Of a DNA stretch of 64,000 nt, positions 16,083 through 58,869 are shown one piece after another. Under the pieces are notes generated by a model, which saw nothing but the letters and a program-made list of their open reading frames with translations, ran no database searches and was not told the DNA's origin. The DNA is from Nostoc sp. UHCC 0702 (GTDB lineage: Bacteria > Cyanobacteriota > Cyanobacteriia > Cyanobacteriales > Nostocaceae), in the NCBI GenBank assembly GCA_017164015.1, contig CP071065.1, positions 5,842,091 through 5,906,090 on the forward strand, in the 5' to 3' direction. Each line of letters begins with the position of its first letter. Within the stretch, counting starts at the first letter, position 1. A program made the position numbers and the translations under genes.

Positions 16083-16952
16083 ATGAAAGCATCTGCTAAG
16101 TTCGACTTTGAGGACGAAAAATTTAATGCACCGCCTTCTCAAGTCATCCCCTGGTGTCAGATGATTAATCCTCGCTATGGCACAGATGGCATCCAACCCC
16201 ACGGGTTGGCGATTAAGGTGGATAATGCCCAGGCTGTCGGCTTTCAACCAGATGATAACTGGCAGCAGGTGGAGCATGAATTTAGCTCTGGAGTGGAAAC
16301 TGTTTTTATGACCGCTACTCCCCAGTTGGTCATAGTACGTAGAGGCCCTTTATCTGTTAAAGACAGGGAAACTGGTCTGAAACTCGGTACACTCAAAGAT
16401 AATTATGATGCTTTTTTAGCAGACAAACTTAAATTTAAAACCTTTACTCGCTATCTAATTTTTATAGTAGGAGAAAATAAAAAGTTTTTACATGAATCCG
16501 CACTGCAATTAACTCTTAATGGTGCAGCAGGAGCGAGTTTCAGCAAAAGTTACTGCGACTACCAACAAGGCAAAGTCGTTAGTGGGTTTGTTGCGGAATT
16601 AGAAAAAGCTTATGCTGTATACCGCAAGCAACCCGTAACACCAAAAGGCCCACTATTCCATGCTCACGGAATTTTTTGCCCGATAATTGAGTGCGAAGAA
16701 AGAGGTATTGAACCGAATATTGCTTTGGTAGCTTCAACTGTAGACTTCAAACATCCCACAGTGGGAACGTTGACACAATACCTGATTGCTTCGGATTCTC
16801 CGGAATCTGCAATTATCTGTAAGACTTTTGAAGAATACAAAGAATTTGGTAAGGAACCCGTAAAAGTAGAATCATCCAAAATTGCAATGGCTGGCGTTTC
16901 CAGTTCTTACATTTACGCTGATGAAGATGATTTTGCTTATCCACCATATTAG
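16083..16952 (+). CDS. Cyanobacterial protein of unknown function (DUF5895-like)
   Basis: A 289-aa soluble protein. The start context is weak but the ATG at 16083 gives a natural N-terminus ([20 protein letters not shown]). Text such as [32 protein letters not shown] and [15 protein letters not shown] resembles a family of cyanobacterial proteins annotated DUF5895, a match from memory only. No signal peptide, membrane segment or nucleotide motif is seen. Such proteins sometimes recall single-strand-DNA or plasmid-related factors, but I cannot support a function. A heptamer array starts at its stop codon. Confidence 0.6.
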
Positions 16953-17057
16953 GGACTGGGGACTGGGGACTGGGGACTGGGGACTGGGGACTGGGGACTG
17001 GGGACTGGGGACTGGGGACTGGGGACTGGGGACTGGGGACTGGGGACTGGGGACTGG
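16951..17057. repeat. Heptamer tandem array (ACTGGGG), about 15 units
   Basis: Uninterrupted ACTGGGG units, the CCCCAGT-type STRR on the other strand. It begins at the stop codon of the preceding gene. Open frames across it (VPSPQS repeats) are artefacts of the repeat. Confidence 0.95.
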
Positions 17058-17092
17058 GAAGTAATTCAGTTTACACAAATTACTATTTCTTG

Positions 17093-17147
17093 TTAATACC
17101 TAATCCCTAATACCCAATCCCCAATCCCTAATACCCAATCCCTATTC
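17093..17147. repeat. Degenerate heptamer array (CCCTAAT / CCCAATC)
   Basis: TAATACCCAATCCCTAAT-type units run up to the end of the mltA gene on the minus strand. Confidence 0.7.
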
Positions 17148-18398
17148 TTTAAGCAGCAAATAATATAATGAACCATTGCCGCCTGTGATGCCGGCGCGAT
17201 CGCCTGCTAACTTACCAGTTCCCATAAAATAGTCTACTCGTCCTGGCCCTTTAATGGCGCTGCCTGTATCTTGATCGAGAACATAGCGGCTAACAGCACG
17301 AGATTCTAATCTGCCGGAACTAGCAGGATAGGGAAATGAATTATAAATCAGGGCTAATGCTCCCGGTGGCATGAGAGACTTATCTGTAGCAATGGAACGT
17401 TCAGGTGTAACTGGCACATTAATGCTACCTGTAGCTTGTCCACCGCCACTTTCACTGAAAAACACAAACCGTTCCCAACGCGGTAGATAATTACTCAACT
17501 CCTGGGGCTGTTGGCGGAAATAACTAATCAAACGTGGCATTGTCAATCCTGCTAGTGGCAGTTTGCCATCTTTCGCCAGTTCTTTGCCAATACTAGTCCA
17601 AGGATAATCTGTTCCACCTGCATAGCTAACAGACGTTCTTTTGCCATTGGTTAATTTAATTTGGGCAGAACCTTGGATGTGTACCATGTATGCATCTAGG
17701 CGATCGCGGAACCAAAGCATTTCTAAACCATGCAATCGGCTTCTGTTGCCTAGTAAACCATCTTTACCTTCCAATTCAATTCGTTTGGGATGGGGTTTCG
17801 CCCATTGATCGAAATCTTTTGGTAATCGATAAAGGGGATATTTATATACTGAAGTTCTTACTCTACTGGCAGTATAAACAGGCTCGTAGTAGGCAGTAAA
17901 TTTAACTGTACCCTTGCCATCATTGCCCACAGATTTGTAAAAAACAAACTCTTGCCGCACAGCAGCTTGCAGTTGTGCGGGAGATTTGGCACTGACTACC
18001 AGTTGACGGAAACGTACTAAACTGCGACGCACGCGGTCAAGTGTAATGCCTTGAACTGGATAGTTTTGATACACTGCGGCCGCCTTATTTCCTGCTAGGT
18101 AACGCAGACTGTTGTCAATGGATGCCAACAACGCCTGGCGATCGCCAACTTTACCCCTTTGACCCCAAATTTGCTCATCCCAACCTAAGCAACTGTACTG
18201 GGGGGTACAATCAGTACCGAGGTTAACGGGTATAAGCGGCGTTTGTATTTCAGCAGTGCTTGGCAAGACTGGCGGCGGGATTTCCGAATTGGTCGGTACT
18301 GGTATTGTTACAGGAACCTGAGCCACAGCTGACCAGATTGTGTTTACAAGGGCAATTCCTAGACTCAAAGAAGCCAAAGCAAGGGTTTTTCTCATCAT
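17142..18398 (-). CDS. mltA: Membrane-bound lytic murein transglycosylase A
   Basis: A 418-aa protein with a signal peptide (MMRKTLALASLSLGIALVNT, cleavage near SAVAQ). No lipobox cysteine is obvious, so it may be periplasmic. The MltA core is seen as FTAYYEPVYTASRVRT, PKRIELEGKDGLLGNRS, WFRDRLDAYMVHIQGSAQI and SYAGGTDYPWTSIGKEL. The 3D domain at the C-terminus (LDQDTGSAIKGPGRVDYFMG) carries the catalytic Asp of the family. It cleaves peptidoglycan glycan strands to form 1,6-anhydro ends. Its ATG follows directly on the TAA of the 84-aa gene upstream, so the two are probably one operon. Confidence 0.93.
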   Translation of the reverse strand: MMRKTLALASLSLGIALVNTIWSAVAQVPVTIPVPTNSEIPPPVLPSTAEIQTPLIPVNLGTDCTPQYSCLGWDEQIWGQRGKVGDRQALLASIDNSLRYLAGNKAAAVYQNYPVQGITLDRVRRSLVRFRQLVVSAKSPAQLQAAVRQEFVFYKSVGNDGKGTVKFTAYYEPVYTASRVRTSVYKYPLYRLPKDFDQWAKPHPKRIELEGKDGLLGNRSRLHGLEMLWFRDRLDAYMVHIQGSAQIKLTNGKRTSVSYAGGTDYPWTSIGKELAKDGKLPLAGLTMPRLISYFRQQPQELSNYLPRWERFVFFSESGGGQATGSINVPVTPERSIATDKSLMPPGALALIYNSFPYPASSGRLESRAVSRYVLDQDTGSAIKGPGRVDYFMGTGKLAGDRAGITGGNGSLYYLLLKE

Positions 18399-22924: not shown

Positions 22925-23719
22925 GTTAGTTAAGAGTAAGTTAGGGTGCATTTAATTTACATAAATACTGGTAGTGGTAATTGACTGTTGACTACTGCGG
23001 GGTGATGCTCAAAAAGCGTAGCGTAATACCCTACTTCCTCCACTTGGTACAGCCCTGTGCTATTGCCTGTCGACAGCCTTTACACGCGGTGTTAAATTCT
23101 AAAATCCAACGGGAGAGGTAGTTACTCCACTTGAGAGAAGACAGAGCTTAACTAGCACTGATGTGCAAAACTTATACCGCAGATTTCAACAAGCATGAGG
23201 TACAAAAATACCCTACTCGCAATACATTCGTGATAGTTTAAGATCGGATACAATTTGTCAATAAGCAATAGTACTTAAAATATTGCTAAAAATCGGGGTT
23301 GTCAACAGAATTTTTGAGCAGGCGATGCCTAAGGGCAAGCCGCTAGCCTGCGGCAACGCCAAAGGCGAACGCGCCTACGCGTCATCTTGATAAGCATCAT
23401 TCATTCAGTACCCATCTGTTCAGTACAAGAGTTAAGTTAATACCTCCGCTTTTTCCAAATTTTCAGGATAATTTCTAATTGACAAAAGCATGATTGTCTT
23501 AAATTCTCACCAATGCTCGCAATATTGCGCTTTAGAGATTAGGGACACGGTATAGTTCATCCACGTAAAAAGCGTTGAAATCCGCTAAAGTGCGTTATTT
23601 TACTTATATATAAATTAGAAAGGAACCCGCTTAAATACTGTAGATATTCATCAAAAGCTTGTGTCATAAATATCTTTGTCAGAACCAATTCATTTACTCC
23701 TTAAAATAGCCCCAAGCTT
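22925..23719. other. Long intergenic region with repetitive hairpin
   Basis: 795 bp without a supported gene. At 23321-23385 lies a GC-rich repeat typical of Nostocales intergenic DNA: GGCGATGCC and GGCAACGCC as outer arms, with GCCGC-TAGCCT-GCGGC nested inside. The segment before the next gene is AT-rich and should hold the promoter of the methyltransferase-azlCD operon. Confidence 0.5.
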
Positions 23720-25264
23720 ATGAGCCAATTAACTATTGCTGCTCCTGATACTTCCTTGATATCGTACTGTGATTATGTGTGCCTAGATAATCAAAATGAA
23801 GACAATATTTGCAGAATCATCGAAAAGTCCTGGATTGAAACTCAGAATGGTTTGAACGCAACAGGGATTGCTTTTAGCCATAGTCATCTTGACAGCGAGC
23901 AACTTTTATCTGTTATCCAAAGCGCTCGTAATCTTTTACTCTCCAAAAAATATTTTTTCTATCCCATACGCTCTTTTATCATTCCTAAAGGCAATATTGT
24001 CCTGCTCTTTTCCTTCCACCGAAATGATACTGGTCAAAAGAAAAACGAGATTTGCTCTCTTGTGATGGCTCAGGATTTGCAAACCGACGATGTTTTACAA
24101 ACAGCGATTGTATTAAGCCGACTTGCAGATGATTGGCATCCTTTAACACCAGAAATACAAGAGATTTTGTTGGAATTGTCTAGACGTGGCGATTATGCCA
24201 TAGGCACGCTTGCAGCAGAAGTGATCACGCAACATGGCACTCCTACTATACCTGCTATTCTTGAAACCTCGATTTGGCAGAACGATAAGCAATTACTCAC
24301 CACCGTGCCTACCAGTAGTGAAACTCTCTTTACTGAAAATTCTGGCGCATTATTTGAGGATAGAATTGACGTTCATAGCTATAACTTTTTTGAATATGTT
24401 CACCCAGCATATGCACGCCAAGTTGTTACAATGGCTCGTTTCATTCGAGAACTTTCTACTGAGCCTGGACAGATTATAGATGTTGGGACAGGTACTGGTG
24501 CAGCGCTTGCAATTTTACTAGATTTAATACCAAGCCTTGAAGTTCTTGCGGTTGAGCCTAGCCCGCTTGCTTTCCAGTATTTGAAAAACAACATGAAACA
24601 TCTACCAAATGTATGTCCGTATCATGGCGATTTTCTTGGTCTAGAATTAGTACAAAAAACTGTTGAGATGATTATTTCAACAGGGGCTTCGCATCACTTT
24701 AATACCTGCTTTTTCTTCCAAAAAGCTGCTCAGCTTCTGACCAATAATGGTGTTTTAATTGTCGCCGATGAATTTATTTCATCCTACAAAACACGTTCAG
24801 AACGTGATAAAAATCTTATTCTTCATCATGCAGCTTACATGATATCGATTCTCTTTTCAGTGCCAGATTATGTAAAGAGTAAAATAGATCAAAAAGAAAA
24901 CAATATTATTAAATGGTTTAGTGAAGTTATTCCATTTGCTCTTTTCAATGCTGTACAAGACAATATTGTCGAGGCAAAGAAACTTTTGAGAGAGCTTTTA
25001 CATAAATCGGAAGCTTTAAATCTAGGAACACATATTTCACATCCCCTCATGGCATTCTTCAGACTACAACTCTTGGAGCTTGAGGCCATGGTTGCTGGGT
25101 TTGACTATGAGGTTGAGCAAAAAACATCGCCTGAGCGGTTCATTGAGATGTCTAAAAAGTCAGGGTTCAAGCTCCTCACCCATGAGCGTGTTTTTGCTAC
25201 AGATGGGGATGGTAAATTGGATGCAGGAACACATGTGATGGTTTTTAGGAAGGTCGCACGTTGA
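23720..25264 (+). CDS. Class I SAM-dependent methyltransferase, large
   Basis: A 514-aa protein. Residues about 1-210 form an N-terminal region without a motif I know. The methyltransferase core begins near 250 with motif I, GQIIDVGTGTGAALAILL, then EVLAVEPSPLAF (motif II, acidic Glu) and VEMIISTGASHHF. The C-terminal 180 residues are helical and end in GTHVMVFRK. The substrate is not apparent. Its TGA overlaps the TTG start of azlC (TTGA), and azlC overlaps azlD, so the three form one tight operon. Coupling of a methyltransferase to an AzlCD exporter suggests a modified amino acid or similar small molecule is made and exported (inference). Confidence 0.75.
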   Translation: MSQLTIAAPDTSLISYCDYVCLDNQNEDNICRIIEKSWIETQNGLNATGIAFSHSHLDSEQLLSVIQSARNLLLSKKYFFYPIRSFIIPKGNIVLLFSFHRNDTGQKKNEICSLVMAQDLQTDDVLQTAIVLSRLADDWHPLTPEIQEILLELSRRGDYAIGTLAAEVITQHGTPTIPAILETSIWQNDKQLLTTVPTSSETLFTENSGALFEDRIDVHSYNFFEYVHPAYARQVVTMARFIRELSTEPGQIIDVGTGTGAALAILLDLIPSLEVLAVEPSPLAFQYLKNNMKHLPNVCPYHGDFLGLELVQKTVEMIISTGASHHFNTCFFFQKAAQLLTNNGVLIVADEFISSYKTRSERDKNLILHHAAYMISILFSVPDYVKSKIDQKENNIIKWFSEVIPFALFNAVQDNIVEAKKLLRELLHKSEALNLGTHISHPLMAFFRLQLLELEAMVAGFDYEVEQKTSPERFIEMSKKSGFKLLTHERVFATDGDGKLDAGTHVMVFRKVAR

Positions 25265-40023: not shown

Positions 40024-40548
40024 CTATTTACGCACTACTACTAAAGTCCCTATAGAAGTCCAGTTGTAAAGCTTGCGAGCTAACTTAACTGGCAAATTCA
40101 CGCAACCATGACTTACTGGAGTCCCAAAACGGTTATGCCAGTAAGCACCGTGAATAGCATAACCTCGATGAAAATACATTGCGTAAGGGACATCAGGAAT
40201 ATCGTAGCCCCTGCCTCGCATTCGATTAGTGCGATATTTAGAATTAATCCGAAAGCTGCCTATAGGTGTGGGAGTTGAGCGCTTTCCTGTGGAAATTCGG
40301 AATGAATATACTAGTTTTTCACCTTCCCATGCACGTAAGCGTTGCTCGGATAAGTCAATTTCAATCCGACGAGGTTGGGATTTTTGCTGCTCGTCAGAGA
40401 TAGTGATGCTGTTGTTTTCCACTGATGCCGCACTGGCTGTAGCAGAGTTATGATCAGCTGCCGTCGGTGGCAAACAAGAGACTAAAGCTGCCACAATCAA
40501 CACCACACCAGCACAGAAAGTCCTTGAGCAACGTATCCAACTTTGCAT
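40024..40548 (-). CDS. L,D-transpeptidase (YkuD domain)
   Basis: 174 aa with an N-terminal signal-type segment ([20 protein letters not shown]); a cysteine within LVSC could make it a lipoprotein. The YkuD domain fills the rest: [20 protein letters not shown], the invariant HGAYWH, and SHGCVNLP with the catalytic Cys. It should form 3-3 peptidoglycan cross-links or attach proteins in the periplasm. A paralogue lies 500 bp upstream on the same strand. Confidence 0.92.
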
Positions 40549-41055: not shown

Positions 41056-41571
41056 CTACTTGTGAATGACTACTTGTGTCCCTAAAGATGCCCATTTGAA
41101 TAGCCACTTAGCATGATTTGGTGCAACATTGACACAGCCGTGGCTGACTGGAGTACCAAAACGCTTATGCCAGTATGCACCATGAATACCATAGTTTCCT
41201 TGGTAAAACATTGCATAAGGAACGTTGGGAACATCGTAGTTTTCTCCGCGCATACGGGTAGTCTTGTACTTGGATTGAATTTTAAAACTGCCAACGCGAG
41301 TCGGAGTAGATTTTTTACCTGAAGAAATCATGACGGAATAAACAGGTTTCCCACCTTCCCAAGCTGTTAATCGCTGCTTTGAGAGATTAATTTGAATCCA
41401 GCGTTGATTGGATTGTTGTAAAGTCTGGATAGTTTGTTTAATGGTCTGTTGATTTGAAACTGCCCAAGCTTCACTAGTCCCAGCACCAATCACACTCAAG
41501 GACAGTGCTGTACCCGCGATCAGTATTTTTAACTGACGCATCCAGTCACCGTTAGTTAGACTTTTCATCAT
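41056..41571 (-). CDS. L,D-transpeptidase (YkuD domain), paralogue
   Basis: 171 aa. AAAGGG before the ATG at 41571 supports the start. A signal peptide (LKILIAGTALSLSVIGAGTS, cleavage near AWA) precedes the YkuD domain: [40 protein letters not shown]. It shares nearly all core residues with the protein at 40024 (for example [12 protein letters not shown] in both), so the two arose by tandem duplication. The signal regions differ, which may give different locations or timing. Confidence 0.92.
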   Translation of the reverse strand: MMKSLTNGDWMRQLKILIAGTALSLSVIGAGTSEAWAVSNQQTIKQTIQTLQQSNQRWIQINLSKQRLTAWEGGKPVYSVMISSGKKSTPTRVGSFKIQSKYKTTRMRGENYDVPNVPYAMFYQGNYGIHGAYWHKRFGTPVSHGCVNVAPNHAKWLFKWASLGTQVVIHK

Positions 41572-50338: not shown

Positions 50339-53300
50339 TTAGTTTGGAGCAAATACGATATCAACCCAGTAATTGCTTGATTGATAACTGTTGTTTGGAA
50401 ACGCAGCATTGGAGCTATATTTATAGACACCGTTGCTGCCACTCACCCCATTTGCAAGGGCGTGCAACGGTGGATTATCCACACCAGCATTAGCAAAGTA
50501 GCCCTCATCTATGGAGTACTGTCCAACATTAGTGTGATAAGACGCTACATATGTAGTGTTAGCGGTAATTGTCTGTGGAGAAGCAAAATTTACCTGTTGC
50601 CAACCTGAAGCAGTTTCGTTACTGAAAGTTGCTCTCTTCAGTTGTGTACCAGTGCTGCTCCACAAAGTACCTACGTGAGTACCCGTATTGGTTGAACTCT
50701 TGTAAAAGCGGATGCCAGTTATTTTACCACTCACATCTGAGCGGAACTTAACACCAACCTCAACAGCACTGGTCTCCGGGTCTGCCACCACAGTAGGAGT
50801 TACTGTATTATTCCAGATACTAGTTGCTCCTGCCCCAGTGGTAAAAGACCAGGTAACATTTGCTGCTAAGGCATTGCCCGCTGAGTCTTTAACTCTAGGG
50901 TCAGTGCTGCCGCCTTTAACAGTGGCCGTATAAGTCGTAGAAGTTGCCAGTGGACTATTCGGTGTCAGCGTTGCAGTATTGTTGCTGGTATTGTATGTGA
51001 CAGTAGCCGTTACTAACGTATTGTTTGACCCCCGCAACTCAAATGTATTGGTATTAATTGTTGCTGAGTTTATGGACTCACTGAAGGTAGCCGTGACGCT
51101 TGTTCCTGTACTCACTCCTGTAGCATTGTTGCTGGGAGTCGTGGAAGTTACTGTTGGTGGAGTAGTGTCAGCCGTAGCCGTAGTAAATGACCAAGTAAAG
51201 TCTGCTGCCAAGGCATTGCCAGCCTGGTCTTTTACCCGTGGGTCAGTAGTCCCACCTCTAACAGTAGCGCTATAAGTTGTTGAAGCTGCCAATGAGCTGC
51301 TTGGTGTAAGCGTGGCGGTATTGTTGTTGGTATTGTAGGTGACAGTGGCTGATACCAGGGTATTATTTGTCCCCCGCAATTCAAATGTATTGGTATTAAT
51401 TGTTGCTGAATCTAGAGCCTCGCTGAAAGTAGCCGTGACGCTTGCTCCAACACTGACGTTAGTAGCACCGTTGTTGGGAGTCGTTGCACTCACCGTCGGT
51501 GGCGTTGTATCAGGAGTTGTGCTAGTTGTGAAGACTACATCCACCCAGTAGTTGCTCGACTGATAAGTTGAGCTAGGGAAGGTTGAGTTCGAGCTATAGC
51601 TATAGACACCATTGCTTCCACTCACTCCATTGGCCAGAGCATAGAGTGGTGGGCTATCAACTCCAGCGCTAGCAAAGTATCCTTCATCTGAGGCATACCC
51701 CCCAACATTGGTATGGTAGGAAGCCACGTAAACGGTGTTAGCAGTAATCGCTACAGGACTAGAAAAACTGATCTCTTGCCAGCCTGAATTGGTTTCGTTG
51801 GTGAAAGTCGCCCTCGCTAGCTGTGTACCAGTACTGCTCCAGAGAGTGCCGACATGAGTACCTGTATTACCGCTTCCTTTATAGAATCGGATACCAGTAA
51901 TGTAGCCGTCCTTATCTGAGCGGAATTTAACTCCCACCTCAACAGCATTAGTATCACTGTCTGATGGATTTGTCGGTGTTGCTGTGCTGTTCCAGATAGT
52001 GCAGGGACAAGTACGTTCTCCAACTGTGACAGTAACACCTGTTCCTGGAGTCTCCAGATTACCGCTATCATCACTGGCGCGGCTGTTGATGGTTACAGAA
52101 CCAGAGGTAGTAGGTGTCCAAGTATAACTCCAGCTAGCACGACCATTGGCAGAATGCCATGTCGTCCCGCCGTCTACCGATACCTCCACAGCACCCACCA
52201 CACCACCACCGACATCAGTTGCTGTACCCGTGATTGTCACCTGTGCACCAATCTGTACATTTGTACCAGTAGTCGGTGAGGTAATTGTTGAGGTAGGAGC
52301 GGTTGTATCAGTGGAAGCAGTAGCAGCTAACAAATTGCTCTGCAATGTAACAGGTTGCACACCCATATCAGCTAACAGGTTAACGGTTGCTTGCTGCATC
52401 CGTACATCCGTTGTATTACCTCGGTCTGTATTGTCGTGATTGGCATCTAAACCCCAAGACCATTGTATGGTTCCAGCACCGAAGACTAGGGCACCACTAG
52501 TATGCTTATAGAGTGTCAAATGATGAGTTGCCGTACCATTGGCATATGTTGATCCGTAGTCTTGTAGAACCTCGACATTGTTAGCTGTGGTCGTTGACAA
52601 GCGAACCAAGCCAGCAGGTCTGAATCCGTTGTCAGAGTCTTCATCCCATTCATAACCTAGGGTGGCGGTAGCCAGTGTAGCAGTACTCCCTGCTGAAAGG
52701 TTGGCAATGTCAGTGTTGCGCCATAAGCGCATCTTACCATCTGCTTCGGGTACTTTGATAGCAGTAGTCCCGCCGTTGACTTTGAAGATTGTTCCAGTTA
52801 GGGCATTCTCAGGACGACCACCATCAGCTGGAGGGCTAAAGCGCGGGTCGCGCCAGGTGCCTGTCCAGGTAGGAGGATCTTGGGGATCGATGACAGCGTT
52901 GGCTTTGGTTTCCTTGTAAGTAACTAAGGTGCGATAGGGTGTGGCCGATGAATCAATACTATTTTCCCAACGAGTTTTCCAGAAGACTTCATTACCGCTA
53001 AAGAAAGCCAGATGAGTACCAAGATTCCTGGCATTTTCGACGTTGGCGCGTTGATCGTTCGACCAGTACTCGTCGTGAGCAACAGATAGAAAAACCTTAT
53101 GATTGCGAATTAAATTACCACGGCGATCGCTATCCACTCCAGTAAAGTAGCTGACATTGTAACCATTAGCCTCCAGCCACCGAACCATGGGGTATTCAGC
53201 GTTAAACAGCCAATCTTGACCGCTGTCAACTACACGGGTATTGAATGGACGGTTATAGCTGACTTTGTATGCTCTACCAGCAGGTGACCCTGTATAAAGG

Positions 53301-53923
53301 CTATTGCCACCGTAGTCATTGTATGCTTGCCAAGTCGTATCAGAGGTTTGGAAAAGCAAATCGGAAGTGCTGGCGTCGTCTCGAACGATAAAGACGATAT
53401 GGCTTGCTCCTCCAGTATCGGTACGCACAACTTTGGCGAAATATATCCCTGATGTGACGTTTGTTGGTACAGACCACGACGCAGACACTGCCCAGTTTCC
53501 ACAATCTATTAGTCCAGTTGTTGTATTTGTGAGGCAGTTTGGTTGGTTTTGGGCCTGTGTTAACGAACGTTGAACAGTTGCTACCTTACGGGCACCGTTA
53601 CCACTGTAGTAGCCCATGCGGTAAATATCTAGCCGATAGTTAGTGGCGTTGGTTTTGATTTTGAAAGAAATAGTCTCTCCCTTATTGACGCTGATATCAG
53701 TGGCAAAACCCTGAATACTTGAGTCACCAACACCACTGATATTCCATTCACTAGAGGGATTACCAGTTTGACAGTTCTCGGCAACTATTGAATTGGCTGG
53801 GGAAGTACAGGGAGCAGCTTGTGCCAGCACCCTCTGCATCGACAGAGGAAACCCCATGTGCAATCCCAAAACCAGAACTGTTGTTAGCATCATCAGGATC
53901 ATCATTCTAATGAGCCTTTTCAT
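50339..53923 (-). CDS. Giant exported mosaic: dimethylformamidase-large-subunit-like domain, Ig-like and DUF4082 modules
   Basis: 1194 aa with a signal peptide (cleavage near VLAQA, about residue 35). Residues about 40-545 resemble the large-subunit domain of N,N-dimethylformamidase: SGVGDSSIQGFATDISVNKG, YRMGYYSGNGARKV, FQTSDTTWQAYNDYGGNSLY, SVAHDEYWSNDQRANVEN, GTIQWSWGLD. An Ig-like domain follows (about 560-650). Then come a DUF4082 module (TNAVEVGVKFRSDKDGYITG, VYVASYHTNVGGYASDEGYF), two SbsA-type Ig repeats (TPPTVSATTPNNGATNVSVG and a near copy) and a second DUF4082. The DMFase-like part suggests amide or similar hydrolysis at the cell surface; the real substrate is unknown. The neighbour at 54313 shares the C-terminal modules. 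Confidence 0.8.
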   Translation of the reverse strand: MKRLIRMMILMMLTTVLVLGLHMGFPLSMQRVLAQAAPCTSPANSIVAENCQTGNPSSEWNISGVGDSSIQGFATDISVNKGETISFKIKTNATNYRLDIYRMGYYSGNGARKVATVQRSLTQAQNQPNCLTNTTTGLIDCGNWAVSASWSVPTNVTSGIYFAKVVRTDTGGASHIVFIVRDDASTSDLLFQTSDTTWQAYNDYGGNSLYTGSPAGRAYKVSYNRPFNTRVVDSGQDWLFNAEYPMVRWLEANGYNVSYFTGVDSDRRGNLIRNHKVFLSVAHDEYWSNDQRANVENARNLGTHLAFFSGNEVFWKTRWENSIDSSATPYRTLVTYKETKANAVIDPQDPPTWTGTWRDPRFSPPADGGRPENALTGTIFKVNGGTTAIKVPEADGKMRLWRNTDIANLSAGSTATLATATLGYEWDEDSDNGFRPAGLVRLSTTTANNVEVLQDYGSTYANGTATHHLTLYKHTSGALVFGAGTIQWSWGLDANHDNTDRGNTTDVRMQQATVNLLADMGVQPVTLQSNLLAATASTDTTAPTSTITSPTTGTNVQIGAQVTITGTATDVGGGVVGAVEVSVDGGTTWHSANGRASWSYTWTPTTSGSVTINSRASDDSGNLETPGTGVTVTVGERTCPCTIWNSTATPTNPSDSDTNAVEVGVKFRSDKDGYITGIRFYKGSGNTGTHVGTLWSSTGTQLARATFTNETNSGWQEISFSSPVAITANTVYVASYHTNVGGYASDEGYFASAGVDSPPLYALANGVSGSNGVYSYSSNSTFPSSTYQSSNYWVDVVFTTSTTPDTTPPTVSATTPNNGATNVSVGASVTATFSEALDSATINTNTFELRGTNNTLVSATVTYNTNNNTATLTPSSSLAASTTYSATVRGGTTDPRVKDQAGNALAADFTWSFTTATADTTPPTVTSTTPSNNATGVSTGTSVTATFSESINSATINTNTFELRGSNNTLVTATVTYNTSNNTATLTPNSPLATSTTYTATVKGGSTDPRVKDSAGNALAANVTWSFTTGAGATSIWNNTVTPTVVADPETSAVEVGVKFRSDVSGKITGIRFYKSSTNTGTHVGTLWSSTGTQLKRATFSNETASGWQQVNFASPQTITANTTYVASYHTNVGQYSIDEGYFANAGVDNPPLHALANGVSGSNGVYKYSSNAAFPNNSYQSSNYWVDIVFAPN

Positions 53924-54312
53924 TCAACCTCCTTTGCAGAACAATAGCAGTTGTAAATATAGAACATTGTTTGAGTTTTAAAAACTTAGGTTAATCAATC
54001 GGAATTAATACTAATTTGCTAAATGAAAGTTACAAATTATCTCCCCTACTTGCCCTCATACGGCAATTTTTAGTTGGTCAATTGCTAGCCTGTTGATCAT
54101 ATGTAGCAACCTTTTGGATAAATGTATAAAAGCTTGATAAATGCTGTTATTCCCTCTTCCTGATGATTTGAATTTCCCCCCTAAAGAGGGAGGAGAGTTT
54201 GACTATTTCCTCCAGCAAATAAAAGTTTTTCTGCTTAGTTTCCTAACAATATAGGATTTTTTGAGGCAGGAAAAGTTACTAGAGGTTAAGTTTTTGATTT
54301 CAGAATCAATTA
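53924..54312. other. Intergenic between the two giant genes
   Basis: 389 bp, AT-rich, no repeats or strong hairpin seen. It should contain the promoter of the 1194-aa gene. Confidence 0.4.
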
Positions 54313-57300
54313 CTAGTTCTTAGTAAAGACAACATCGACCCAGTAATTGCTGGAACTGTAAGAGGAGTTGGGGAAGGCAGGATTGGCGCTGTAATTATAA
54401 ACACCATTACCATTACTAGAGCCATTACTGAGGGCATAGAGTGGTGAATTATCAACACCAGCATTAGCAAAGTAATTTTGGTCTAGGGAGTAATATCCGA
54501 CATTAGTGTGGTAAGACACCACATAAGTAGTATTGGCAGTAATAGCCACTGGCGTAGTCAAATTCACCTGCTGCCAACCCGAAGCAGATTCACTGCTGAA
54601 AGTAGCAGTAGCCAACTGTGTACCAGTGCTGCTCCACAGAGTACCGACGTGAGTACCAGTATTATTTGCACCCTTATAGAAACGAATGCCAGTGATGTAG
54701 CCATTGACATCGGACTGGAACTTAACCCCCAACTCCACAGCATTGGGATCAGGAACTGTCACTACGCTAGGAGTGGTTGCAGCACTCCAGATATTGCATG
54801 GACAGGTGGCGAGGGCGACGGTAGTGAAAGAGCGAGTGAAATTGGCTGCTAAGGCATTGCCAGCTAAATCTTTCACCCGTGGGTCACTGCCACCACCAAT
54901 GACTGTGAGAGTATAACTAGTGGAATTTGCCAATGAGCTAGTTGGTGTGAGTGTGGCTGTGCGATTGACAGTGTTATAGCTAATAGTGGCTGCCACAACA
55001 GCATTACTGGAGTCACGTAACTTCACAGTATTGGTATTAATCGTTGCCGAGTCCATTGCCTCATTGAAAGTGACTGTGACAGGTGTGCCAATGCCCACCC
55101 CAGTTGCACCGCTATTGGGAGATGCTGATGTCACCGTTGGCGGCGTTGTGTCTGGGCCTGTACTAGTGACAAACACTACGTCTACCCAATAATTACTTGC
55201 TTGAAAACTGTTATTGGGGAAGCTACTAGCACCATACTTGTAGACACCATTGCCTCCATTCTCTCCATCGCGTAGCAGACGCAGTGGTGGATTATCAACT
55301 CCAGAATTGGCAAAGAATCCACTATCAGTAGCGTAGTTGCCCACATCTGTGTGGTAAGAAGCCACGTAAACTGTGTTGGCAGTTATGGCTACTGGGGAGC
55401 TAAAGTTAACCTGTTGCCAACCAGAGGCAGTTTCATTGCTGAAAGTTGCTGTTGCTAGTTGTGTACCATCGCTACTCCACAAGTTGCCGATGTGAGTGCC
55501 TGTGTTGCCATTTCCCTTATAGAACCGCACACCAGTGATGAAACCGTCGATGTCTGAAGTGAACTTCACACCCAATTCCACAGCATTAGGATCGGCAGTC
55601 GATGGATTTGTGGGAGTTGTGGAATTATTCCAGATGCTCAATGGTGGTAGTGTACTGGCTGTGGTAAACGACAAATTATAGTTATTGGCTAAGGCGTTAC
55701 CTGCTGGGTCTAATACTCGTGGGTTAATGGTTCCACCAATAATTGTCAGGTTGTAAGTCGTGGAGATTGCTAAGGGGCTAGTGGGTGTGAGTGTGGCGGT
55801 GCGGGTTGCTTCGTCATAGGTGACATTAGCGGCAATCAACGTGTTGCTTTGATTTCGCAATTCTAAGGTGCTGCTGTTAATGGTGGCAGGGTTGATGGCT
55901 TCGCTGAAGGTGGCTGTGACAGTTGTGACTGTACTCACACCAGTTGCACTGCTGCTGGGAGTTGTGGCTGTAACTGTTGGGGGTGTTGTATCCAGGGTGT
56001 ATGTGGCGATGTAACTACCAGACTCACCAGGGAAAAAGGCGTATTCAATGCCTTTGATTCCTTGGGCTGTGTAGGTGAGTGCATTGCCATTACGGCTAAT
56101 ACTGTCCAAAACTAAGTTATTGATGCGAGTTGGTAGCATCGCCTGCAAATTGTTTGCCCCTGTGGCTTTGGTGATTGTAAAGTTGAGGCTGTTGTTGCTC
56201 CATGACAGTGAGCCAATGGATGAGCTGTTGCGAGCGTCGAGCCATGTCAACATTTGTTTGGCGGAGACTATGGGCACATTCCGGTCTTGGGCGGATTTAA
56301 CTACTGCATCGGCAACTGTTGAGTTTGTGGAATCTGTATGAGCGTTGACGTTGAAAACTCCATAGTATCCCTCGGTGCCAATTGCTCGATCTAGTAAAGT
56401 ATCGATTGAGGCAGGATATGTTTGTCCTGATTCATCGGTTAATTGGGTGGTGGCGTTGTAGACATCAATGATTGTGCCGTTGGTGTTGGCTAGGCGCATG
56501 GGCATGCCTGAGCCGGTGAAGAATCCTGGACGGTCAGCTACCCAACTCGGTGGCCAATAGTAGTAGGTGGTGTCGAATCTGATGCCATGATTGAGTTCAA
56601 CAACTGGTGTACTAAACCAGTCACTCCACACTAGACAGTGATGGCGTTGGGTGCTGGGAGCAGGTATGCTGCTGTAGTTAGTGGTAAAGGTAGTTAGCTG
56701 TTGTGTGTAGAAATCTTCTAGTGTGCTGGCTGTGAAATCTGCACAGTTGGTGTTGACATGTAAGGCGACTTCAAAGCCTTCGGCTTCGTAAGCTGCTGCC
56801 TGCTGGCTGGTCATTGGTGAGTTGGGGTAGATATATGATGTGCCGCGAACACAATCCCAATTCTCTACTACGCAGTTGGCTGGACTTTTGGCTTTAAATT
56901 GCTCAAACCTACCTGCTGTGCCGCCATTGGCATGGTCGTCTCCTGTCATCAGTACTACTGCTTTTTTGCCGTTGGGGAAGTACCAAAAACGCGGTAGTGG
57001 TTTTTTATCGAGGTTGATTTTGATAATTAAGTTGGCTAGCAGGCGTTGTTGTTCGTCGGCCTGGGGAATAGCTACTTTGTTGAGGTCTACCCAATCTTTT
57101 TGCAAATCACCACTGGTGTTGCCATAGAATAGGTCGTCGGAGCGTATTGGCGGTTTTGCATCGCGTTCCAGATTGGCCCAGGCGATGTTACCTTGGCGTG
57201 TGTAGATGATTGAACGTGCGAGGTCGTAGGTAAAGGCTGCTACTTGCCCGCCGTTATTACCGACGTTACGCACTGTGATGGCTGGATTGCTGGTTGCTGT

Positions 57301-58869
57301 TGTGGCGTTTGTATATAGGTTGGCGATGCTGGTTGCACCGTTGAGTGTGTAGCGGTCTGCTGTTGAGTGGTATTGGATGGTCTGGTCTACTATGCCGTAG
57401 CCGATATCTGTGCTGCTGTCTACTCGCAAATAGCTGTTGTCGAGGCTGGATGATGCATCACTCAGCCCCAACAAGGAAGCTAGTTTCTTGTCGGGACGCA
57501 TGGCGATTAAATTGCCTCCATCGGCTACCCAGTCGGTGAACATTGCTACAGCATCACTGCTGAGGGCTGTCTCGGACAGGATGACTACGTCGTAGCCTGT
57601 TAGTGTATTTGCTGATACTGAGGAGATATCGCTGACGTTGAAGTTGTTGAATCCTTCGTTGAGCAGGATCTCGCTGTAGTAGTTGCTTACGGGGTTGGCT
57701 GCGCTAGTTACTACTAAAATTGGCCCTCCCGATGCTGATGGTACTGAACCTATTACTGTTCCACTATTGCCACTAACGACGGCTTCCTTAACAGACCTAG
57801 AAATTAGCTGGCTTTTCTGGCTCTTTTTCTCATCTTGGTTGATGGATAATTGGCTATCGCCTATGTTATCCAGTATTTGGATGTCTAGCTCCTGGATACT
57901 AGTTTTTGCGTTCCAGATTTTAATGTCACCATTTTTGTCTGCGCTGACAAACTTTTTCCCATCAGGGCTACGAGTTAGGTCTGTGATGGAATCATTATGT
58001 CCGATGAGGCTTTTGCGGAAACTACCAGTTAGTGTGTCCCACTCGAAAATCTTTTTTTCATCGCCAGCAGTAAACAAGATAGTTCCATCCGAAGAGAAGG
58101 TAACTGCCTTGAGCGGTTTATTAGCTTTACGCAGAACCTTGAGTTGTTTTTTGGTTTTCACATCCCAAAGTCTAGCTGTGGTGTCATCGCTAACACTGGC
58201 TAAGATGTCTCCCTTGGGATTATAGGCAATTTGAGTGACTCTACCAGCGTGTCCGAGGAGGGTTTGAATTTCTTTACCTTCTGTTATGTCCCACAGCTTG
58301 ATTAGACCTTGCTCGTCTGAACTTGCCAGGGTCTTGCTGTCTGGACTGAAGGCTAAACTCTCGATGAAGCTTTCGTGGCCGGTGAGAACCTTGTCGAGTT
58401 TGTTGGTCTGTGCGTTCCACAAGAAGATTTTAGTATCTTCGCCTCCAGTAGCGAGGAAATTCCCGTCCGGGCTGGTGGCAAGTGTTGTAATCGGGTGTTC
58501 GTGTCCTGGGAGGGTGTAGGTTTGTTTGCTTGTTTGTAGATCCCACCCACGCACTACAGAGTCTCGTCCAGCAGTATTGAGCTTTCCTTCTTTGGTGAAA
58601 CTAAGCCCAGTGACAGCAGCTTCTGCTGAGGTAGCCGATATAGTTAGTTTCTCCTTGCCGGTAACTGGGTCATAAATCAGGACTCGACCATCTTCAGTAC
58701 CGCTTACCAGGTTCTTGCCATCCTGGCTGTAAGCGATCGCACTCACTGCTTTGGTACTCTTTTTCGATATAGCTGTTGCAGGCCCATTTATCTGACCCCA
58801 GAAGGACATCAGTAAGATCGTGAAGAGCGTACAGCAAAATAAAATGATGTATCTAGAACGTCGCTTCAT
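54313..58869 (-). CDS. Giant exported mosaic: WD40 propeller, deacetylase-like domain, Ig-like and DUF4082 modules
   Basis: 1518 aa. An N-terminal hydrophobic segment (YIILFCCTLFTILLMSFWG) acts as signal or anchor. Residues about 40-330 hold seven WD40 repeats (for example GHEHPITTLATSPDGNFLAT, GHESFIESLAFSPDSKTLAS). Residues about 375-610 look like a GATase/ThuA-type fold (GPILVVTSAANPVSNYYSEI). Residues about 640-900 resemble a polysaccharide-deacetylase-type domain: VVLMTGDDHANGG (Asp pair) and EVALHVNTNCADF (His). The C-terminus has two Ig-like/DUF4082 pairs (GPDTTPPTVTSASPNSGATG, NAVELGVKFTSDIDGFITGV), close copies of those in the 1194-aa protein. A surface glycan enzyme with a scaffold is my inference. 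It lies upstream on the same strand. Confidence 0.78.
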   Translation of the reverse strand: MKRRSRYIILFCCTLFTILLMSFWGQINGPATAISKKSTKAVSAIAYSQDGKNLVSGTEDGRVLIYDPVTGKEKLTISATSAEAAVTGLSFTKEGKLNTAGRDSVVRGWDLQTSKQTYTLPGHEHPITTLATSPDGNFLATGGEDTKIFLWNAQTNKLDKVLTGHESFIESLAFSPDSKTLASSDEQGLIKLWDITEGKEIQTLLGHAGRVTQIAYNPKGDILASVSDDTTARLWDVKTKKQLKVLRKANKPLKAVTFSSDGTILFTAGDEKKIFEWDTLTGSFRKSLIGHNDSITDLTRSPDGKKFVSADKNGDIKIWNAKTSIQELDIQILDNIGDSQLSINQDEKKSQKSQLISRSVKEAVVSGNSGTVIGSVPSASGGPILVVTSAANPVSNYYSEILLNEGFNNFNVSDISSVSANTLTGYDVVILSETALSSDAVAMFTDWVADGGNLIAMRPDKKLASLLGLSDASSSLDNSYLRVDSSTDIGYGIVDQTIQYHSTADRYTLNGATSIANLYTNATTATSNPAITVRNVGNNGGQVAAFTYDLARSIIYTRQGNIAWANLERDAKPPIRSDDLFYGNTSGDLQKDWVDLNKVAIPQADEQQRLLANLIIKINLDKKPLPRFWYFPNGKKAVVLMTGDDHANGGTAGRFEQFKAKSPANCVVENWDCVRGTSYIYPNSPMTSQQAAAYEAEGFEVALHVNTNCADFTASTLEDFYTQQLTTFTTNYSSIPAPSTQRHHCLVWSDWFSTPVVELNHGIRFDTTYYYWPPSWVADRPGFFTGSGMPMRLANTNGTIIDVYNATTQLTDESGQTYPASIDTLLDRAIGTEGYYGVFNVNAHTDSTNSTVADAVVKSAQDRNVPIVSAKQMLTWLDARNSSSIGSLSWSNNSLNFTITKATGANNLQAMLPTRINNLVLDSISRNGNALTYTAQGIKGIEYAFFPGESGSYIATYTLDTTPPTVTATTPSSSATGVSTVTTVTATFSEAINPATINSSTLELRNQSNTLIAANVTYDEATRTATLTPTSPLAISTTYNLTIIGGTINPRVLDPAGNALANNYNLSFTTASTLPPLSIWNNSTTPTNPSTADPNAVELGVKFTSDIDGFITGVRFYKGNGNTGTHIGNLWSSDGTQLATATFSNETASGWQQVNFSSPVAITANTVYVASYHTDVGNYATDSGFFANSGVDNPPLRLLRDGENGGNGVYKYGASSFPNNSFQASNYWVDVVFVTSTGPDTTPPTVTSASPNSGATGVGIGTPVTVTFNEAMDSATINTNTVKLRDSSNAVVAATISYNTVNRTATLTPTSSLANSTSYTLTVIGGGSDPRVKDLAGNALAANFTRSFTTVALATCPCNIWSAATTPSVVTVPDPNAVELGVKFQSDVNGYITGIRFYKGANNTGTHVGTLWSSTGTQLATATFSSESASGWQQVNLTTPVAITANTTYVVSYHTNVGYYSLDQNYFANAGVDNSPLYALSNGSSNGNGVYNYSANPAFPNSSYSSSNYWVDVVFTKN

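Follow-up and report, generated by a model that had tools for sequence, protein, structure and literature searches.

Two neighbouring DUF4082 proteins with unlike heads in Nostoc sp. UHCC 0702: a probable polysaccharide-modifying system

Introduction

Two large proteins that share their accessory modules but carry unlike heads raise the question of whether they work together, and on which substrate. The genes of interest, named A and B here, lie in a window of 64,000 nucleotides (C1:5842091-5906090; contig CP071065.1) from Nostoc sp. UHCC 0702, the genome of which is one contig of 8.59 Mb. They are two minus-strand open reading frames (ORFs), B first, with 389 bases between them. The initial annotation of this window described a pair of giant surface proteins, possibly two enzymes of one extracellular pathway acting, for instance, on an amide- or acetyl-bearing glycan. 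The ORFs and Pfam agree that each protein has two DUF4082 and two Ig-type (Big_5) modules beside its own head. This head is of the dimethylformamidase (DMFase) type in A; in B, a WD40 propeller is followed by a GATase-like and a deacetylase-like region, which were recognised by structure modelling. Our analyses suggest that A and B probably form one polysaccharide-modifying system. We also lean towards the reading that both enzymes de-N-acylate the same secreted polymer, which likely contains N-acylated 3-amino sugars. The one-pathway proposal is supported by linkage, by fusion of the heads, by conserved sites, and by the sugar-gene context; its GATase-like part is probably not catalytic.

Biofilms need extracellular de-N-acetylation of polymers like Pel and galactosaminogalactan, and enzymatic de-N-acetylation of secreted polymers is already known. 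No description of the enzyme pair, the B family, or the DMFase-type partner was found in the open-licence PMC literature searched, nor any joint mention of dimethylformamidase and exopolysaccharide. If the proposal is true, the DMFase-type iron site would be a second chemistry for extracellular polymer de-N-acylation, and B would be a candidate new esterase family outside every Pfam model. The giant DUF4082 proteins would gain a testable function, and the system would point toward a polymer of N-acylated 3-amino sugars.

Linkage and fusion of A and B across bacteria

A panel of 60 genomes, the Nostoc genome itself included, was searched for both genes; close A orthologues were defined by at least 75% identity. 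A full B head was found in seven genomes (the Nostoc genome, G001, G004, G010, G016, G019, and G035), and close A orthologues were found in the same seven and in G005. In each of the seven genomes with both genes, A and B adjoin on one strand. The initial annotation would have been refuted by a lack of linkage in other genomes or by heads with broken active sites across orthologues. Neither was observed: the linkage is seen elsewhere, and the active-site residues are kept, as detailed for each head below.

GTDB genomes were scanned with a 9-sequence alignment (A2), and 77 loci were kept of 121 relatives (51-87% identity over the best segment). These B-head loci span Cyanobacteria, Gamma-, Beta-, and Deltaproteobacteria, Chloroflexi, Acidobacteria, Actinobacteria, Bacteroidetes, Verrucomicrobia, and Peribacteria. 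Hidden Markov models were built and refined on the 77 loci for a census of the heads. Both heads were found in one ORF in 28 of the 77 loci, with the DMF head first in 19 and the B head first in 9; another 12 loci have them as separate same-strand ORFs. The head pair was seen in Cyanobacteria, Proteobacteria, Chloroflexi, Acidobacteria, Actinobacteria, and Bacteroidetes. For a rough comparison, the Nostoc genome contains four DMF-type matches in 8.59 Mb, so a chance occurrence would be expected in about 1% of its 20-kb stretches. The distances among the two kinds of head are also correlated (Mantel r 0.71 for 35 loci, a value reached in 0 of 5000 permutations; r 0.68 when restricted to the 29 non-cyanobacterial loci), to which common ancestry and joint transfer contribute.

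DUF4082 occurs within a B ORF in 70 of the 77 loci. WD40 was found in 30 loci; in six homologous loci, it is encoded by an ORF of its own upstream (L093, L097, L098, L100, L102, and L113). Ten uncharted homologue stretches gave mainly Ig or other repeat families and no recurrent third head, along with one GH16 match (L129) and one sub-threshold DUF2194 match (L128). The former is a fused Adhaeribacter homologue (L129:11729-16852), which has a Por_Secre_tail sorting domain at its end; this fits an extracellular location.

Structure and conserved residues of the B head

The region of B at about residues 363-960 has no Pfam match above the cut-off, with ThuA as a sub-threshold match (E 0.033), and no NCBIfam family was found for B at E up to 0.1. 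A structure model of the head (AF2, from a 90-sequence alignment) was obtained with high confidence (pLDDT 94.7, pTM 0.94). Together with the fold comparison (VIA), this model bears out the GATase-like and deacetylase-like regions that had been read from the sequence. Model residues 1-241 resemble ThuA/GATase-like folds, including 2gk3 (Z 18.6, 184 residues, root-mean-square deviation (rmsd) 2.6) and 4jqs (Z 18.1, 192 residues, rmsd 2.8). Residues from about 253 to 502 resemble polysaccharide deacetylases, including 3rxz (Z 18.3, 225 residues, rmsd 3.2) and 3qbu (Z 17.8, 219 residues, rmsd 3.2); ArnD (8t0j; Z 16.6, 206 residues, rmsd 2.9) is a further match of this carbohydrate-esterase domain. 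By far the longest alignment among the 50 entries listed is that of Agd3 (6nwz_A), which aligns over model residues 1 to 576, the whole of the modelled head (Z 17.5, 456 residues, rmsd 9.8). Such a high rmsd points to a different placement of the domains in B and Agd3.

Conservation analysis showed that D644, H646, H704, C709, R742, H744, C745, P773, R792, H844, and D846 are present in all 90 sequences; D645 is present in 86, with E in three and N in one of the others. The residue order of the CE18 and CE26 families is a paired Asp, a late Arg, and a final His (PMC7229062, PMC13254593). The same order is followed in B by D644-D645 (CM1, base and metal ligand), R792 (candidate for CM3, the base-coordinating Arg), and H844 (candidate for CM4, the catalytic His). 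H704 has no His four residues further on in any of the 90 sequences; H744 (90/90) may take the place of this second His of the HxxxH metal motif.

The closest known system is Agd3 (CE18 + CBM87), the galactosaminogalactan deacetylase of Aspergillus. Its three domains (ThuA/GATase-like, NodB-type deacetylase, and beta) come in the same order as in B, and its bacterial homologues occur in exopolysaccharide operons, which resembles the gene context of B (PMC7229062). The paired acidic residues are common to both, as are, by residue order, a late Arg and a final His. However, HxxxH (CM2) is lacking in all 90 B sequences; a PDB comparison with the 90-sequence profile brought up no Agd3 chain at E up to 10; and B has a WD40 propeller, DUF4082/Big_5 cassettes, and a DMFase-type partner or fusion. 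The sole PDB match of this profile in that range was YcjY (E 0.075), which was set aside as chance-level. Another known system is Bacillus cereus PelADA (CE26 + CBM114), together with PelA (CE21). It is also a three-domain deacetylase of an extracellular amino-sugar polymer, with an Asp close behind its catalytic His (D491 behind H488; compare D846 behind H844 in B); PelADA retains HxxxH, whereas B does not (PMC13254593 for PelADA). B would thus work like Agd3, yet it would not be filed in CE18.

The ThuA/GATase-like domain was considered as a second enzyme. Within residues 382-622, no column has Cys in at least half of the 90 sequences, and an enzymatic role of this domain was therefore rejected. 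Its counterpart in Agd3 is a carbohydrate-binding module (PMC7229062). By analogy, the domain in B is probably also a carbohydrate-binding module rather than the catalytic head proposed in the initial annotation.

The DMFase-type head of A

The A head matches PF20254 (DMFA2_C) with 354.7 bits against a cut-off of 27. Its residues Y201, Y210, H283, E285, and N311 align to Y399, Y440, H519, E521, and N547 of the Paracoccus enzyme parDMFase, N311 by profile alignment. In parDMFase, Y399, Y440, and E521 are the iron ligands and H519 is catalytic (PMC7686228); a small subunit is needed for its activity. Among 48 A heads (8 from orthologues, 40 from homologous loci, near-duplicates kept), Y201, H283, E285, and N311 are present in 48 and Y210 in 46. 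All five residues occur together in 46 of the 48; the other two heads (L103 and L112) have E at the Y210 column. The A head is thus predicted to carry the 2-Tyr-1-Glu iron site and the catalytic His and Asn of the DMFase family.

A 44-head DMF profile was compared with the PDB. The top match was N-acetyl-(R)-beta-phenylalanine acylase (8huy, E 2.2e-15), followed by DMFase (1.1e-7); the A head aligns by profile to both kinds of enzyme (8huy and 8i59 for the acylase). These enzymes are named for small amides, whereas A is modular, apparently secreted, and tied to polysaccharide genes. A related protein of the same genome (L011:5831-7975) has a single DUF4082 ahead of its DMF-type head, which is the reverse of the order in A; it adjoins a psbA-like gene.

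Sugar-gene and exporter context

Flanking genes of the non-cyanobacterial loci were tallied (137 ORFs of 206 candidates; 25 of 112 families listed), and the leading families were DegT (9), Hexapep (8), sugar transferase (5), and Gfo/Idh (5). A trio of hexapeptide transferase, Gfo/Idh, and DegT genes with at least 50% identity to those of L082 was found in 12 of the 77 loci, L082 included, and also in L067 and L070 beyond these 12. The trio is spread over cyanobacteria, rhizobia, methanotrophs, an acidobacterium, and two further proteobacterial lineages. The best PDB match of its hexapeptide protein is the lipopolysaccharide (LPS) acetyltransferase 3mqg. Its DegT protein matches QdtB, a 3-aminotransferase (E 3e-105), and WbpE structures (E 3e-89). 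An analogous set (WbpB, WbpE, and WbpD) makes uridine diphosphate (UDP)-2,3-diacetamido sugars in Pseudomonas aeruginosa; in this Wbp pathway, a Gfo/Idh dehydrogenase, a DegT aminotransferase, and a hexapeptide transferase are likewise co-encoded (PMC10622841).

The trio was also found together with export genes. In G004 (by Pfam) and G010 (by synteny and NCBIfam), B and A have a Wzt/Wzm-type exporter on one side and the trio on the other. The same gene run contains a DUF4082-DUF4082-DMF protein in G009, G027, and G052; the DMF protein of this run in G003 gave no DUF4082 match. The pair of G019 is flanked by glycosyltransferases and a PF00953 transferase, and the A gene of G005 by Wzz/BY-kinase. 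In the Nostoc genome itself, the trio, Wzm, Wzt, and glycosyltransferases are located at about C1:5926.6-5942.5 kb.

As a control for co-occurrence, a Gfo/Idh orthologue (E up to 1e-100) was found in 18 of the 60 relatives. A is present in 8 of these 18 and in 0 of the 42 others (Fisher 1.7e-5); B in 7 of 18 and 0 of 42 (Fisher 8e-5); any DMF protein in 17 of 18 and 12 of 42 (Fisher 2e-6). The nearest DMF match is at most 9 kb from the Gfo/Idh match in 11 of the 18 genomes, 27 kb away in G019, and 39 kb away in the Nostoc genome. In G001 (61 kb) and G035 (687 kb) it is a different DMF protein; in G008, G013, and G016 it is absent or on no contig common with Gfo/Idh.

In rhizobia, the two heads were found apart. 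On plasmid p_2 of S. meliloti, a B head accompanies the trio, and the 25.7-kb stretch contains no DMF head; on pRlvE of R. leguminosarum, two DMF-DUF4082 giants accompany the trio, and no B head occurs within 25.4 kb. For a plasmid-borne B head of Pararhizobium (L152), no match to the trio was found at E 1e-5 in its stretch; its neighbours are genes for sugar uptake and oxidation, and no biosynthetic cluster is visible there. Either head can thus be linked to the trio without the other, though not in every case. At the R. leguminosarum locus, a GTP-binding protein follows each giant (L153:16144-17328 and 22951-24171). By Pfam, the first of these belongs to the CobW/G3E GTPases and may be a metal-loading partner; an ABC transporter with a peptidase domain comes next.

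Proposed mechanism and alternative explanations

The domain content, conserved residues, folds, linkage, fusions, and sugar-trio context were computed here; from these we infer export, metals, reaction, substrate, the shared polymer, and the role of DUF4082. A and B would be exported, presumably via Sec. The polymer would contain N-acylated 3-amino sugars made by the linked trio, and would leave the cell through the Wzm/Wzt-type ABC exporter. The ThuA-like domain of B may bind this polymer, and its putative metal-dependent NodB-type domain may take off N-acyl (probably N-acetyl) groups, as in Agd3. A may hydrolyse an acyl amide of the same polymer at its DMFase-type iron site. The DUF4082 and Big_5 modules might be spacers, or glycan- or surface-binding parts that hold both enzymes on the polymer. 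A more specific version is offered as a tentative and less likely possibility: a 2,3-diacylamino sugar of the polymer would lose one N-acyl group to A and the other to B, leaving a zwitterionic or cationic coat. A and B would then be two unrelated N-deacetylases of a widespread system, A an iron amidohydrolase of the DMFase family, and B a new NodB-type carbohydrate-esterase family without HxxxH.

Several observations weigh against the proposed joint de-N-acylation of one polymer. No DMF head was found in 37 of the 77 loci; the B ORF runs off the contig in 19 of these, 3 loci are shorter than 15 kb, and 15 have complete flanks. S. meliloti has B with no A nearby and R. leguminosarum has A-type genes but lacks B nearby, so there is no strict dependence of either on the other in cis. 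The trio is about 30 kb from B in the Nostoc genome, 2.1 Mb from the pair in G035, and on other contigs in G001 and G016; G013 has a Gfo/Idh gene with no DMF match. The direct neighbours in the window are a kinase, a hydrolase, an ABC exporter, and a phosphoesterase, which are not obvious polysaccharide genes. Moreover, the Fisher and permutation values overstate independence because of shared ancestry and near-duplicate loci. For the B head, the top Z-scores belong to glycosidases with which it has parts of the fold in common (6tvk, Z 21.0, 261 residues, rmsd 5.3; 5xb7, Z 19.9, 225 residues, rmsd 4.5), and the best Foldseek E-values are those of GH42-type and other enzymes with a common ThuA-like part. 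HxxxH, the metal motif of CE4 and CE18, is found at H704 in 0 of 90 sequences, and the metal site of B is putative. For the trio, the best PDB match of DegT is the scyllo-inositol transaminase 7b0d (E 2e-128), and Gfo/Idh has no PDB match at E 1e-20. The NCBIfam equivalog scores are far below their cut-offs (NF040723, 164-174 versus 450 bits; TIGR03570, 79-85 versus 160.8). The trio differs from the Wbp pathway in these scores, in the closer relation of its DegT to another transaminase, and in its WbpA and WbpI partners, which are not established; the sugar made by the trio thus stays a suggestion.

Four other explanations were compared with joint de-N-acylation of a secreted coat polymer. Degradation or remodelling of a polysaccharide for nutrient scavenging or cell release, instead of maturing the coat of the producing cell itself, is unlikely. 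Secreted multi-modular hydrolases with Ig modules frequently target foreign glycans, and both the GH16 match in L129 and the sugar-uptake and oxidation genes beside the Pararhizobium B head would fit such a role. However, the recurrent neighbours belong to biosynthesis and export (nucleotide-sugar enzymes, Wzm/Wzt, an initiating transferase, and Wzz/BY-kinase), and A-type or B-A genes lie inside such gene runs in G004, G009, G010, G027, and G052. It is rather improbable that A and B are deformylases of N-formyl amino sugars in the polymer. This would agree with the formamide-hydrolysing DMFase family of A, and with the alignment of the B esterase domain to ArnD, which we take to be a deformylase. 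The linked acyltransferase is of the hexapeptide type, with an LPS acetyltransferase as its best solved match; no formyltransferase family is among the 25 of 112 flanking families listed; and the nearest solved relative of the A head, judged by its name, acts on an N-acetyl substrate. All three argue against deformylation.

The heads might also be non-catalytic, with the proteins acting as adhesins or matrix scaffolds by glycan binding or structure. DUF4082, Big_5, and WD40 resemble scaffold modules, B has no HxxxH, and the ThuA-like fold is a carbohydrate-binding module in Agd3 (PMC7229062). The near-complete retention of the DMFase iron-site residues in A, and the presence of D644, H704, H744, R792, H844, and D846 in 90 of 90 B heads across phyla, make this improbable. 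The proposal that the linkage is a by-product of DUF4082/Big_5 module shuffling, with heads of no common function, deserves little credence. The modules are repetitive, the head order varies, and G019 hints at homogenisation between A and B modules; the same two heads are nevertheless fused in both orders or adjacent in many phyla, their distances are correlated, and in two rhizobia each of them is tied separately to the one sugar trio.

A second copy of B

A second B gene was found in the Nostoc genome, and also in G001 and G004. The two B genes of the Nostoc genome are 99.8% identical from about codon 366 to the stop, with WD40 parts of about 50-67% identity (Table 1). The two copies of G001 are 96-100% identical from about codon 400 to the contig limit; their last 970 bp are 99.9% identical. 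Between the Nostoc genome and G001, the WD40 parts are orthologous (82-95%), and the rest is merely 70-91% identical. Since the identity downstream of WD40 is higher within each genome than between the species, the catalytic part has probably been homogenised separately in both species while the propellers were kept apart. Both genomes would therefore hold two B isoforms that differ mainly in the propeller. In G001, A adjoins the other B copy; its contigs break in this repeat, so a mis-join is possible at this position. The second copy of the Nostoc genome is followed downstream by a GlmS-like gene (GATase_6 and two SIS domains), while a GNAT acetyltransferase and a PG_binding_1 protein are encoded upstream of it (L009:8286-10160 and 16415-17514).

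Accessory modules and layout of the locus

DUF4082 (PF13313) matched A and B with 344.9 and 350.1 bits (cut-off 28.4), and eight DUF4082 matches were found in the Nostoc genome; the open-licence PMC literature searched gave nothing on this domain beyond a table entry. The pairwise identities are 68-77% among the four DUF4082 modules in the window and 60-79% among the four Big_5 modules. The modules had been called close copies of each other; they are paralogous, but not near-identical recent copies. Direct gene conversion between the A and B cassettes, considered in the initial annotation, was not seen in the Nostoc genome and was rejected, as the DUF4082 copies cluster mainly by position in the tree. 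G019, one other genome among those in the tree, suggests a possible homogenisation of A and B modules. Weak matches inside A (PHR, Mo-co_dimer, and TonB_2 in Pfam; SorA in NCBIfam) were judged to be Ig or beta-sandwich cross-matches and set aside.

Table 1. Coordinates of genes A and B, their domains, and related features (window positions unless a locus or contig is named).
Feature	Position	Strand	Description	Basis
Gene A	50339..53923	-	1194 aa, signal-like N-terminus; DMFase-type head + Big_7 + DUF4082 + 2 Big_5 + DUF4082	ORF, Pfam, 8 orthologues
A head, DMFA2_C	52433..53632	-	aa 98-497	Pfam (E 1e-105), mapping to parDMFase 6lvb, conservation
A Big_7 Ig-like domain	52088..52297	-	aa 543-612	Pfam
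A DUF4082 module 1	51542..51982	-	aa 648-794	Pfam, genome-wide matches
A Big_5 modules (two)	50837..51496	-	about aa 810-1029	Pfam, 2 stretches, best 919-1029
A DUF4082 module 2	50363..50803	-		Pfam, genome-wide matches
Gene B	54313..58869	-	1518 aa, signal-like N-terminus; WD40 + GATase-like + NodB-type carbohydrate esterase + beta domain + (Big_5 + DUF4082) x 2	
B WD40 propeller	57880..58755	-	about aa 39-330	Pfam
B ThuA/GATase-like domain	57004..57726	-	aa 382-622; probable carbohydrate-binding module	Structure model, VIA
B NodB-type carbohydrate-esterase domain	56221..56970	-	about aa 634-883	Structure model, VIA, conservation in 90 sequences
B C-terminal beta domain	55999..56220	-	about aa 884-957	Structure model; Agd3 6nwz alignment reaches over it
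B Big_5 module 1	55654..55995	-		Pfam
B DUF4082 module 1	55183..55620	-		Pfam, genome-wide matches
B Big_5 module 2	54820..55152	-	aa 1240-1350	Pfam
B DUF4082 module 2	54337..54777	-	aa 1365-1511	Pfam, genome-wide matches
Near-identical tract in B	54314..57774	-	99.8% to L009:10992-14452, 7 mismatches in 3461 bp; upstream WD40 part diverged	
Second B gene, same genome	L009:10991-15550 = G000:C1:4162990-4167549			Nucleotide match
Trio loci among the 77	L080-L085, L087, L089, L098, L100, L101, L113			

A promoter and terminator scan of the minus strand between A and B yielded none. Elsewhere in the window, two YkuD L,D-transpeptidase genes of similar lengths form an adjacent pair (40024-40548 and 41056-41571).

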